A DNA stretch of 49,990 bases from Candidatus Omnitrophota bacterium (lineage in GTDB: Bacteria > Omnitrophota > Gorgyraeia > JAHJTE01). The notes under the pieces are model-generated. The model had not been told where the DNA came from. It ran no database searches and saw nothing but the letters and a program-made list of their open reading frames with translations. Below, one piece after another: positions 16,566 through 21,468 of the stretch. The stretch lies in assembly GCA_020058285.1 (NCBI GenBank), contig JAGVEL010000003.1, forward strand, positions 1-49,990. The letters are read 5' to 3'. The translations under genes and the position numbers were made by a program. Position 1 is the stretch's first letter; each line of letters opens with the position of its first letter.

Positions 16566-19472
16566 CTAGATTTTAGCAAAATTGCAAATCTGATTAAATG
16601 CACAATAAGTGCAAGCCAGATAATTCGGATTTGCTTCAAAGTTTTCGCTTTTTAGGCCTGAAGAAACAAATGCAACGTTCTCTTTTAACTTATCAAAATC
16701 CTTTTTATCCTTTAGGGCTCTGCCCACTAAGCCGGATTCCAAGAAATGCAATTCGCTATACTTAGGCAAGAAACCAAAGATCTCCTTAAACGCAAAGGCG
16801 TATATTGCCAACTGCAGACTCTCCTTAGCCTTTTTATCAGCATCTTTTTGTTTATGGATATGGCTGGATTTAAAATCAATAATTATTGCCTCTTCTTTAG
16901 AAAGTAAATCAATCCTATCCCACCTGCCGACTATTCTTTTGCCATCTAAATTAAATGTGAAAGCCTTCTCAATATACGTCGGGATTCTACCATCTAGCTC
17001 TTCCTTCTCAAAGAATTTTTTGAGAGCAACGTGACCAAGCGCTCGGCGTGTTTCATAATGTTTCCTGCTTAGGAAACCTTCCGCAGAGAAATTTTCCTCA
17101 AAAGCACCGATGATTTCTGGCAGCGTTATTTTAGCCTTATTCATTTTGAATTGAAAATATTTCTGCACAGCATCGTGCAAAGCCTTGCCGTAAATTACAG
17201 TGTGATGCGTAAGAATCGGCACATGTATTATATGCACAAATTTATATTTTAAAGGACAAGTCAAATAATCATCAATCTGGTAAAAACTTAATGAAAAATT
17301 TTCTTTCATGCCTGAAATTTTTTTATTTTTCTCTAACTGCACTTTTTCGGCTTTGAATCTGTTAATTGTATCCAAGGCGCTTGATTTCAATTTTGGCGCT
17401 ACTTCTTCTTTGGACTTACCTAAGGCTTCAAAAATGAATTCACTGGGATTACGAAGTCTAACTGTACCATAATCATCAGCGCTGGTTAAATAGAGCTCGT
17501 CCTTAGCCCTGGTCATTGCCACATAGAATAACCTTCTCTCCTCCTGGGTGTGAAAATCTCCCACTGGCAAAACCTCTTTGATCAACTCATCAGGCAACTC
17601 TAAGGGATCACGGCGCTTTGGCCAGGGGAACCTACCCTGGATTAAAGCCACAATAAACACAACTTTAAATTCCAAGCCCTTAGCTTTATGCACAGTAGAG
17701 ATGTTTACTGCCGGCACATCTAAACTTGCCTCAACAGTAGCCGGGTCATCGCCGGATTGGATTAACATATCCAGATATTCAATAAAGTGTATAACTCGGT
17801 TTTCTGTGGAAACATTCTCAAATTCCCGAACAATTTCGAAAAATTTGGCTAAGTTCTCTATTTTTTCCTCATTTTCCAAGGACTGATTCTTTAGTAGTTC
17901 TTTTAAATATTTAGTCTCAGTCAAAAATAAATACAGCAATCTTCCACTGCTCACTTGAGTAGAAGAGGCAAAGAATTTTTCCAAATCAGCTACGAGCCTA
18001 TCTATATCTGATGCTGCCTGCTTAACTTTATCAGTCAACTCTGGGGTTTGCCGGAAGTTCTTCATAGTCCAGAATAAATCCTGATGAGTTCTCTTGGCAA
18101 AACTTGCCAAATATGCCAGCTCAACAGCATTAACTTTATAAATTTCACTTGAAGCTAGATAATAAAGGCTTATTGAATCAGCAATATTTGCCATGAATTT
18201 TAAAAATGAAATACATAGTTTTACTTCTGGCCGGCTATAAAGGCCCTGATTACCGCTAAACCTCCAAGGAACACCAATCATATTTAAACTGGCAATAAAC
18301 TCATCAGCATCATTGTTTGAACGCACTAGAATCGCAAAATCATCATAGGAATATTTTTCAGCAGCAACTAATTCCTTAATTATCTTTGCCACCTTGTCTG
18401 CCTCGTTAGAATGCCGGTCAAAATGCAGATAAGTTACCTGTTTACCCCCAGGAGTACCAATAAGCTGCTTATTTATATTTGACTTAACCTCAAATCTGTC
18501 GGGATTATTATGTTGGATTAACCTATAAGCAGCGTCAAGGATACTCTGGGTTGAGCGATAGTTACGAATTAAGGTTATCTGTTTTGCCTCTGGAAAAGCA
18601 TCAGCAAAACCTAAGATATTGCTATAGGCTGCACCGCGAAACCTGTATATAGACTGGTCATCATCAGCAACTACGGTAATATTTTTGAGTTTGCCGGCCA
18701 GGAGCTTTACTAATTGAAATTGGGCGTAATTTGTATCCTGAAACTCATCAACCAGGATATATTTGAATTTATCCTGGTAAAATTTCAAAATCTTCTTGTG
18801 CTTACGTAACATTTGTAAGGCAAGATAAAATTGGTTTGCAAAGTCAACCTTGCCGGATTTCTTTAATAAGGCCTGATATGCCTCAAAACACAAAGATAAC
18901 TCTTTATGCAAGCGAAAGTATTCTTTATTTGCCTCATCCTGAGAATTTGGCTTAGCTTCTAACTTTTTAATAAACTCTTTATATTCTTCAACTGAAATAT
19001 CCTCATCTCTTAACCGGCTGAAGAATCTTAAAAAATCATTAATGAATTTAGTCGGATCGCTTGCCGGACGCAGATAATCCAATGGAAAGTCAAAAAGATG
19101 CTCGCGTACCAAAACCGCTGCTTCGGGACGGGTTAAAACTTTAAAATCAGGATTAAATCCAACCTCTAATGCGTTCTCTCGCAAAATCCTGTCGCCAAAC
19201 GAATGAAATGTAGATATCCAGATATCTGTGTAGCCATAGGGAACAAGGATATCCACCTTTTCTACCATCTGCGCTGCTGCCCGGTCAGTAAAGGTTAATG
19301 CCAGTATTTCATCCTGCTTCGCCAGCTTCTGTTCAATGAGATAAGCAATCTTCCTGGTTATAACACTGGTCTTACCAGTGCCAGCACCAGCAATAATTAA
19401 TAACGGGCCGTCAGTATGTGTTACTGACTGGTTTTGTTCCTGGTTTAAGCCTTGTAAGATTTGAGATTCCAT
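16566..19472 (-). CDS. UvrD/PcrA-type helicase fused to a Cys-bearing PD-(D/E)XK nuclease
   Basis: A 968-residue superfamily 1A helicase-nuclease. The helicase part shows Walker A AGAGTGKTS (28-36), FTDRAA, STFHSFG, the DEFQDTN box, ADDDQSIYRFRGA, STVHKAKGLEF and AMTRAKDELYL. From about residue 730 there is a RecB-family nuclease: GKALHDAVQKYF, then IIDFKSS as the catalytic D-x-K centre. Cys739 (in DYLTCPLKY) and Cys954, Cys957 and Cys963 match the four-cysteine iron-sulfur arrangement of AddB, AdnA/B and Cas4 nucleases. It is probably a single-subunit end-processing enzyme for recombination or repair. No partner subunit is adjacent. Confidence 0.92.
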   Translation of the reverse strand: MESQILQGLNQEQNQSVTHTDGPLLIIAGAGTGKTSVITRKIAYLIEQKLAKQDEILALTFTDRAAAQMVEKVDILVPYGYTDIWISTFHSFGDRILRENALEVGFNPDFKVLTRPEAAVLVREHLFDFPLDYLRPASDPTKFINDFLRFFSRLRDEDISVEEYKEFIKKLEAKPNSQDEANKEYFRLHKELSLCFEAYQALLKKSGKVDFANQFYLALQMLRKHKKILKFYQDKFKYILVDEFQDTNYAQFQLVKLLAGKLKNITVVADDDQSIYRFRGAAYSNILGFADAFPEAKQITLIRNYRSTQSILDAAYRLIQHNNPDRFEVKSNINKQLIGTPGGKQVTYLHFDRHSNEADKVAKIIKELVAAEKYSYDDFAILVRSNNDADEFIASLNMIGVPWRFSGNQGLYSRPEVKLCISFLKFMANIADSISLYYLASSEIYKVNAVELAYLASFAKRTHQDLFWTMKNFRQTPELTDKVKQAASDIDRLVADLEKFFASSTQVSSGRLLYLFLTETKYLKELLKNQSLENEEKIENLAKFFEIVREFENVSTENRVIHFIEYLDMLIQSGDDPATVEASLDVPAVNISTVHKAKGLEFKVVFIVALIQGRFPWPKRRDPLELPDELIKEVLPVGDFHTQEERRLFYVAMTRAKDELYLTSADDYGTVRLRNPSEFIFEALGKSKEEVAPKLKSSALDTINRFKAEKVQLEKNKKISGMKENFSLSFYQIDDYLTCPLKYKFVHIIHVPILTHHTVIYGKALHDAVQKYFQFKMNKAKITLPEIIGAFEENFSAEGFLSRKHYETRRALGHVALKKFFEKEELDGRIPTYIEKAFTFNLDGKRIVGRWDRIDLLSKEEAIIIDFKSSHIHKQKDADKKAKESLQLAIYAFAFKEIFGFLPKYSELHFLESGLVGRALKDKKDFDKLKENVAFVSSGLKSENFEANPNYLACTYCAFNQICNFAKI

Positions 19473-19483
19473 TTTCTTAAAAT

Positions 19484-19624
19484 CTATTCACACCCATAAC
19501 ACATACATTTACATATCTTATCAACACAATAAGGCTCGTGGCCTTCTTTAACTCCGGGGATACTATATCCAGAACAATCAACATTTAGACAGTCTTTGTC
19601 AGAATTGCATTTTTTCTCTACTAT
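19484..19624 (-). pseudogene. Cys-rich C-terminal tail cut off from the preceding gene by an in-frame TAG
   Basis: Reading on past the TAG at 19627-19625 in the same frame gives 46 more codons ending in a second TAG at 19486-19484. The stretch contains eight cysteines in its last 41 residues (KKCNSDKDC, LNVDC, EPYC, VDKICKCMCYGC). The paralogous gene just upstream has a comparable Cys-rich tail in one uninterrupted frame, starting from the same VTIEVK/ITIEVK junction. I therefore read this as the original C-terminus of the gene at 19625-20158, separated by a nonsense mutation, a sequencing error or programmed readthrough. It has no start codon or ribosome-binding site of its own. Confidence 0.75.
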
Positions 19625-20158
19625 CTACTTCACCTCTATGGTGATGGTGTTGGAAACAAGTGTGCCCTCCCACATTGGCAACTTTTCATTAGCTGAAAAT
19701 GGCCTTTTGGATAAAAATGAGCAGACGATCGTATATGCTCCTGGTTTTGACATGATATACCATCTATTAAGGGTTGCCTTGAGCACAATTTCTTCACCGG
19801 TTTTTATTGGAATACTTTGATAAGGAACAGACATTTTACTTTGTTGTTCAATGTGCTTATATTGTTGTTCTTTTTCTGACTTATCTTTAAATACTCGAAA
19901 AACAAAATTACTTTGATGCCCAATTTCATCAATATCTTTGTAAAAGCGACCAAGCCATAATTCTTGGTCTCCATTGTTTTCAAGAATTACATCAACAATA
20001 ACATCTTCTCCTTTATCATACACCTGCTTATCTGATTTGATGAAGAGCGTAAGCGGTGAGCTTTTGTCGAACCGCTGAAGTTGCTGTTTTGATTCCTGGC
20101 AATAGCTAAACGGCGTAATTAAAAGTAAAATTGCAATTCCTAATAATATCTTTTTCAT
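19625..20158 (-). CDS. Secreted protein with BsuPI/Ig-like domain (C-terminus interrupted)
   Basis: I do not recognise a named gene. From the ATG at 20158, preceded by GGGGTC, the 177-residue product starts with a signal peptide (MKKILLGIAILLLITPFSYC). A Cys at its end could also be a lipoprotein site, but no clear lipobox is seen. The body is a beta-rich domain opening with FIKSDKQVYDKGEDVIVDVIL and ending TNTITIEVK-like, typical of BsuPI-type Ig-like folds. It is a paralogue of the gene 10 nt upstream, with the same SDKQVYD start and the same end. The paralogue then continues into a Cys-rich tail, whereas this gene stops at TAG, with the tail sequence beyond it. Confidence 0.75.
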   Translation of the reverse strand: MKKILLGIAILLLITPFSYCQESKQQLQRFDKSSPLTLFIKSDKQVYDKGEDVIVDVILENNGDQELWLGRFYKDIDEIGHQSNFVFRVFKDKSEKEQQYKHIEQQSKMSVPYQSIPIKTGEEIVLKATLNRWYIMSKPGAYTIVCSFLSKRPFSANEKLPMWEGTLVSNTITIEVK

Positions 20159-20168
20159 TTTGACCCCA

Positions 20169-21272
20169 CTATTCCTTTGGACCTTCAACACATTTATTAT
20201 TTACACAGTAGCAGATTAAGGTATCAAAGCCGCCAAATTTGCATTTTTTGTTATCTGGAGGACAATTTTCCAATTCAACATACTTATTTACACATCTATC
20301 TTGGCAATTGCAATAATCCCTTACCCACTTACAATCTTCATTGCGTTTGCAATATTTATCTGAAGGTGCCCCCTTGCTCTCATCCTCCTTCACCTCAATC
20401 GTGACAGCGTCAGAGGCAAGCTTACCTTGCCACACGGGTCTAATTGTTGTTCCTTGAAGAATAAATTCAACTTTTATATCCATAACACCTTTTTTTATGG
20501 GATTATTCACATTAATTAAAACTTCTCTATTCATAACTCCAGAAAAACGTTCTAGTTTATAACTTTTAGAGGGTTTTATACACACTATATCTCGATCCAT
20601 TGCTTGGCCACTTTCCGCGACTATTGGCCCTTCACTAATAAATTCCTTGCCTTCTTGAGTAAGTGTTATTATATACCTTAAATCATTGGCAAGCGTGTTA
20701 ATGCATACTTCGGAAGTGCTAATATTTTTCATTTCTGCTATAAGTTTTATTGGCTCCCCAGCGTCGTACACTTGCTTATCTGATTTAATGGAGAATTCAA
20801 GGGGTTGTTTTTGGTTAATTTCTTTTAGCCGTTTTAAATACACAGAATGTATAACTTCCATTTGCTGAAGTCTGTGTTTTACTTCTTGTAACTGTTCTTC
20901 AACTGGCACCTCAACACCCGCAGGTCTTCCTTTGGCAGCGTATGGGTCCAAATAACCTGCCAAATAAACTTTATCATCTTTGTAGCGAACCAAAAGCACT
21001 CCACCTTTATAGAGCTCATAAGAAAGATTGGAGCTGTCAGGAGTAGTGGTGGTGGGTAGCTTGCTAATAGTATCAGGCGCAGGCTTGCCTTCCCCGAAAA
21101 TTCTTTCCACTTCCTCTTTTGATGTTCCTTCCTTGGGCGTACAACTACTTTCAATATCTGATATTTTTTTACGAAGTAAGGTGATTTTTTCTTCTGGCGT
21201 TAGTTGACTCTGGCCAAAGCCACTTGTTCCAATTAAGAGTATTAAGATAATTATTGGAATAATCTTTTTCAT
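20169..21272 (-). CDS. Secreted protein: coiled-coil, Ig-like (BsuPI-like) and Cys-rich domains
   Basis: Unnamed 367-residue exported protein. The ATG at 21272 has a strong GAGGTGG site. Residues 1-19 form a signal peptide (MKKIIPIIILILLIGTSGFG). A segment TSKEEVERIFGEGKP near residue 50, followed by an ELYKGGVLLVRYKDDKVYLA strand pair, resembles the SmpA/BamE-like fold. A charged helix (about 120-150) follows, then an Ig-like domain starting FSIKSDKQVYDAGEPIKL, and finally a tail with ten cysteines ending CYCVNNKC, like small disulfide-rich inhibitor or EGF-type modules. Function unknown; an envelope or surface role is inferred. Element C lies directly upstream. Confidence 0.8.
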   Translation of the reverse strand: MKKIIPIIILILLIGTSGFGQSQLTPEEKITLLRKKISDIESSCTPKEGTSKEEVERIFGEGKPAPDTISKLPTTTTPDSSNLSYELYKGGVLLVRYKDDKVYLAGYLDPYAAKGRPAGVEVPVEEQLQEVKHRLQQMEVIHSVYLKRLKEINQKQPLEFSIKSDKQVYDAGEPIKLIAEMKNISTSEVCINTLANDLRYIITLTQEGKEFISEGPIVAESGQAMDRDIVCIKPSKSYKLERFSGVMNREVLINVNNPIKKGVMDIKVEFILQGTTIRPVWQGKLASDAVTIEVKEDESKGAPSDKYCKRNEDCKWVRDYCNCQDRCVNKYVELENCPPDNKKCKFGGFDTLICYCVNNKCVEGPKE

Positions 21273-21294
21273 ATCCACCTCAAGGAGCATTTCC

Positions 21295-21468
21295 AATGAG
21301 CACATAACTTATGGAGCTGTTTATTGACTTTGGCGACATAAGTTATCTGTGCGAATTGGACCCCCACACCCAGCTGCTACAAAGAAACACAAAAGTAGGA
21401 ACTGGGTGTGGGGTAAGTTCGTGCATACAATTTACGTTCACTGTCGTTCCGTAAATTGTGCACTTACC
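21295..21468. repeat. Structured palindromic element, copy C
   Basis: P1 pairs GCACATAACTTATG (21300-21313) with 21337-21352, with a 2-nt bulge on the 3' strand and the apical GGAGC...GCGA. P2 pairs CCCCACACCCAG (21362-21373) with CTGGGTGTGGGG (21402-21413). P3 pairs 21421-21436 (GTGCATACAATTTACG) with 21450-21463, with a 2-nt TA bulge on the 5' strand. Linkers are GAATTGGA and GTAAGTTC. It lies between the divergent rpmB promoter and the start of the secreted-protein gene. Confidence 0.88.

Follow-up and report, generated by a model that had tools for sequence, protein, structure and literature searches.

An in-frame TAG between an Ig-like domain and a Cys-rich tail in an Omnitrophota gene is most simply read as an ordinary truncation

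The window analyzed here, a stretch of 49,990 nucleotides from an Omnitrophota MAG (contig JAGVEL010000003.1), carries a gene for a secreted protein in which a TAG codon separates an Ig-like domain from an in-frame Cys-rich tail. The TAG is most simply explained by the recent, ordinary loss of a dispensable module through truncation (or by a base error), and no new decoding trick is called for. In particular, we assign a probability of roughly 0.6 to the explanation that a recent or strain-level nonsense substitution removed an optional C-terminal Cys module and left a single-domain secreted protein.

Overall organization of the gene

The gene and its surroundings contain the following features:

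16566..19472, minus strand: putative UvrD/Rep-like helicase, the next gene downstream, named from its N-terminal sequence and starting 11 bp past the stop of the tail
19484..19624, minus strand: in-frame Cys-rich tail of 46 codons with 8 Cys and its own TAG stop at 19484-19486 (from sequence and the homologue in JADFZK010000063.1)
19625..19627, minus strand: in-frame TAG, one residue past the last Ig-like strand (from sequence, the strand in the AF2 model and the ends of relatives 1-9 residues past that strand)
19625..20158, minus strand: secreted single Ig-like-domain protein of 177 aa with the C-terminus ITIEVK-TAG (from sequence, profile match, AF2 model and Foldseek)
19630..19636, minus strand: GAGGTGA, a Shine-Dalgarno-like motif 5 nt ahead of the ATA at 19624-19622 (from sequence)
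20099..20158, minus strand: N-terminal signal peptide, approximately residues 1-20, MKKILLGIAILLLITPFSYC (read from sequence; helix 2-18 in the model; same start in relatives)
20169..21305, minus strand: upstream paralogue, an Ig-like domain in which VTIEVK runs straight into a different Cys-rich tail at 20172-20387 (from sequence)

The preliminary description had the gene at 19625-20158 end in ITIEVK-TAG and continue in frame for 46 residues with eight Cys before the next stop; its coordinates, its frame and both TAGs were confirmed. Read from 20158 to 19625 on the minus strand, the gene encodes MKKILLGIAILLLITPFSYCQ...SNTITIEVK and then TAG, which gives a product of 177 aa. The codon directly 3' of this TAG (19627-19625) is ATA (19624-19622) and, as had been noted, begins with A.

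The AF2 model, built from a 10-row alignment with a mean pLDDT of 72, revealed a β-sandwich whose last strand comprised residues 172-177, with the TAG at position 178. Foldseek matches of the model were Ig/Fn3-like domains with low TM, and the PF20251 Big_14 profile scored 18.9 bits (E 0.0015), below its gathering cut-off of 27. The upstream paralogue contains a sense codon where the gene under study has TAG, and its VTIEVK does continue into a Cys-rich tail as the preliminary description stated. The two tails had been called comparable. Judged from their sequences, they are alike in Cys richness and in a C-x5-C start, but homology was not demonstrable by BLASTP, which aligned them just over KxCxxxxDC with an E-value of 0.75.

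Domain boundary in related proteins

Most relatives from the same class terminate 1-9 residues past the final Ig-like strand. G338, which is closest to the gene under study (38% identity, E 6e-26), has the C-terminus TSNTIKIRVFEFESPQK-stop, 9 residues past the same strand, and no Cys-rich sequence was found past its stop. Similarly, two further family members in the same genome as the gene under study (G000:C44:7517 and G000:C12:2615, both on the minus strand) end in EVKER-stop and IKITDDH-stop and contain no Cys tail. The single-domain protein without a tail is the normal form in the Omnitrophota relatives of this gene. Other relatives carry C-terminal additions at the boundary, which are MORN_2 repeats, other domains or another Cys tail, and the position after TIEV is a site where C-terminal modules come and go. 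Given this gain and loss of modules at the boundary, the single-domain secreted protein of 177 aa is probably complete and functional. In the relative L003 (499-1701), MORN_2 repeats follow the same Ig-like domain, an example of C-terminal module swapping at this boundary.

Neither an intact fusion of the Ig-like domain with a tail of the window type nor a relative with the TAG plus the tail was found among the sampled Omnitrophota genomes, none of which is of the same family; the nearest relatives are tail-less. The preliminary description had expected its case to weaken if orthologues stopped at the same place with no coding conservation beyond. The relatives do stop here without a tail, which goes part of the way against it.

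The Cys-rich tail and its homologue

A homologue of the tail was found in a different Omnitrophota MAG (G176), in contig JADFZK010000063.1 (G176:C35), where CGKHDSGVKSGYMPDCVENKCRCMCPGCE-stop aligned with SGYSIPGVKEGHEPYCVDKICKCMCYGCE-stop of the window. The two tails are identical at 15 of 29 residues and have a common C-terminal CMCxGCE-stop. Different synonymous codons are used at 8 of the 15 identical residues, which argues that the tail has been maintained at the protein level; it is a real protein domain. The gene at 19625-20158 is therefore followed, in frame past its stop, by homologous coding sequence, as in a nonsense-truncated gene.

The first 52-57 bases of JADFZK010000063.1 recur in eight further contigs of this genome, each time at a contig end. 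This near-identical sequence of approximately 52 bp was observed at nine G176 contig ends in all, C35:1-54 (L147/L160), C14, C26, C33, C41, C46, C50, C60 and C76, and appears to mark the terminus of a mobile element present in several copies, one of which cuts the gene of the tail homologue. An N-terminal similarity of the homologue (IVWKK) was rejected as spurious because the mobile-element end covers that part. The missing N-terminal part of the gene was not found in the other flanks of the element in G176. Both copies of the tail found, in the window and in G176, thus sit in interrupted genes.

All 8 Cys and the reading frame of the tail are intact, and no decay is visible. Across all six reading frames of the MAG after reassembly, the pattern C-x5-C-x(2-10)-C-x(3-25)-C-x4-C-x-C occurred once, in the tail. 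At least 8 Cys were present in 10 of 7994 open non-gene segments of 46 codons, the tail included, and among those listed of the 63 unclaimed in-frame extensions past stops, none but the tail had more than 4 Cys. The median gap between same-strand neighbours is 11 bp, which is precisely the distance from the TAG of the tail to the next gene; counted from the first TAG (19627-19625), the gap would be 152 bp, a size that 17% of gaps reach. This spacing is compatible with a formerly coding tail and is weak evidence for it. The in-frame codon usage score of the tail (3.1) was inside the coding range and the synonymous-only score (-3.1) was about 2 SD below the coding mean; these values are uninformative because the tail is short and Cys-rich.

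No significant match to the tail was found among solved structures, and AF2 modeled it with low confidence only. A search for the full-length protein in plasmids and a search for the tail in viral contigs and phages returned none. Weak tail matches (those read in L148-L150 and L192-L197) were rejected, as they lay in other genes, between genes or in the wrong frame. In one of these loci, L148, an intergenic frame at approximately 1501-1581, between the rplK-like and rplA-like genes of G083, reads CSGYSIPGV and so matches the tail at nine residues; this identity is probably due to chance.

Decoding of TAG in the genome

The MAG was put together from its stretches (1,244,441 of 1,244,920 bases, 70 contigs, about 93% complete). 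TAG terminates 234 of 1133 ORFs of at least 90 aa and 114 of 503 ORFs of at least 300 aa, and it is also the stop of the upstream gene and of the tail. RF1 scored above its profile cut-off and is intact; an apparent internal TGA was discarded, as it is the terminal stop of RF1 itself. TAG is an ordinary stop in this genome, in agreement with the preliminary judgment that a general reassignment was unlikely.

Pyrrolysine genes and a suppressor tRNA had been proposed as things to look for, and neither pylS nor such a tRNA turned up. PylS was absent from the MAG, where aminoacyl-tRNA synthetase matches to its profile stayed below the cut-off (best 29.7 bits against 178). None of the 40 tRNAs in the approximately 93% complete MAG had a CTA anticodon, an absence that is not absolute, as tRNA-Asn, -Glu and -Ile are missing too. 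Amber reassignment, Pyl insertion and a suppressor tRNA were accordingly rejected on this assembly, given the TAG usage, the RF1, the lack of PylS and the lack of a CTA-anticodon tRNA. A stimulatory 3' context or RNA structure for programmed readthrough was likewise rejected: the 100 nt after the stop showed no unusual structure (fold z -0.04), and the following ATA is not known as a strong leaky context.

Explanations for the in-frame TAG

Since the relatives stop at the same place without the tail, a tolerated truncation at the domain boundary is the simplest reading. The ancestral gene, or the gene in present sister strains, would have encoded a secreted Ig-like domain fused to a small Cys-rich module of the disulfide type. 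Through a nonsense substitution of recent date in the first codon of the linker, translation would now end right past the last Ig-like strand; the product expected in the cell is the single-domain protein of 177 aa, and the tail would be untranslated save for background readthrough and at the start of its decay. The order of these events is something we infer, because the compared genomes include none of the same family, as are the ancestral fused state, the recency of the stop and the dispensability of the tail. The dispensability fits the observation that the gene of the one tail homologue found is likewise broken, and a recent stop would be expected to leave the frame and all 8 Cys intact, as they are. 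Against truncation, the undecayed tail would fit an error or a bypass as well, and a random nonsense change would strike the exact boundary in a minority of cases, approximately 6 of 46 tail/linker codons.

The preliminary description had offered a recent stop, an error or a regular bypass. This set was well chosen, as the tail is a real domain, but bypass found no positive support. An error of base calling, assembly or strain consensus, with a sense codon and a full 224-aa protein in the true population, is rather unlikely. The sequence comes from a single MAG of 70 contigs, one substitution would be enough, and both the undecayed tail and the sense codon at the corresponding place of the upstream paralogue are compatible with it. 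However, there are few signs of other wrong stops in the MAG, where the top-scoring unclaimed extensions resemble ordinary small genes by sequence, and only by chance would an error coincide so precisely with the place where the domain naturally ends.

Selected (programmed) readthrough, which would yield mostly the Ig domain alone and a minority isoform with the Cys tail through TAG read as an amino acid, is unlikely. The stop lies precisely between two domains with the tail intact and no gap, and conserved in-frame stops with downstream dN/dS below 1, including a TAG/CAG example, have been reported across bacteria (PMC7918605); the same survey judged most of the conserved cases that it found to be short-lived and not functional recoding. 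In this MAG, RF1 is present, no suppressor or Pyl system was found, neither the RNA downstream nor the ATA context favors readthrough, and no orthologue with the TAG was found among the sampled Omnitrophota genomes. The specific form in which the boundary TAG acts as a leaky switch, with near-cognate readthrough under selection adding the 8-Cys tail to a small fraction of a mostly Ig-like product, is quite doubtful.

A reverse history, in which a tail-less Ig gene with a native TAG was joined by recombination to a tail fragment that was never co-translated, is improbable. Tail-less members that end here are the norm, and the tail was found in a distant family beside a mobile-element end; on the other hand, the tail is gapless, in frame and preceded by an open run of linker codons with no start, whereas a junction made at random would keep the frame in a third of cases and would rarely be gapless. 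It is hardly credible that the tail is a separate, translationally coupled small protein starting at ATA (19624) behind GAGGTGA: the motif has a suitable 5-nt spacing, but it is encoded by the conserved IEVK and is probably a by-product of those codons, ATA starts are very rare, the sole ATG of the tail is codon 41 with no ATG, GTG or TTG near its start, and an 8-Cys module suggests export while no signal peptide is present.

Comparison with known systems

If the TAG is a simple truncation, the gene adds to the cases in which a domain boundary is where an optional C-terminal module was lost, and it cautions against taking a conserved post-stop frame for recoding. If readthrough were shown, the gene would represent a chromosomal switch between two isoforms, of which viruses provide the better-known cases. 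Hardly any relatives of the small Cys-rich domain are known, and the domain is itself a minor new element.

The cases in the 2021 survey (PMC7918605) are similar to the present one in combining an in-frame TAG with conserved downstream coding sequence in an otherwise standard-code bacterium. They differ in that they were picked because orthologues share the stop, whereas here no such orthologue is known and the stop lies at the end of a domain. The 177-aa protein has a β-sandwich and weak profile matches in common with the Ig-like single-domain secreted proteins of the Big_14 (PF20251) and BsuPI (PF12690) families, although every profile match is below the curated cut-offs and membership is not established. 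The Cys spacing of the tail, C-x5-C...C-x4-C-x-C, is like that of defensin-like/nodule cysteine-rich peptides (PDB 7th8), although the match is not significant (E = 2), and the tail is bacterial and contains two extra Cys; the likeness to these plant peptides is most likely convergence.
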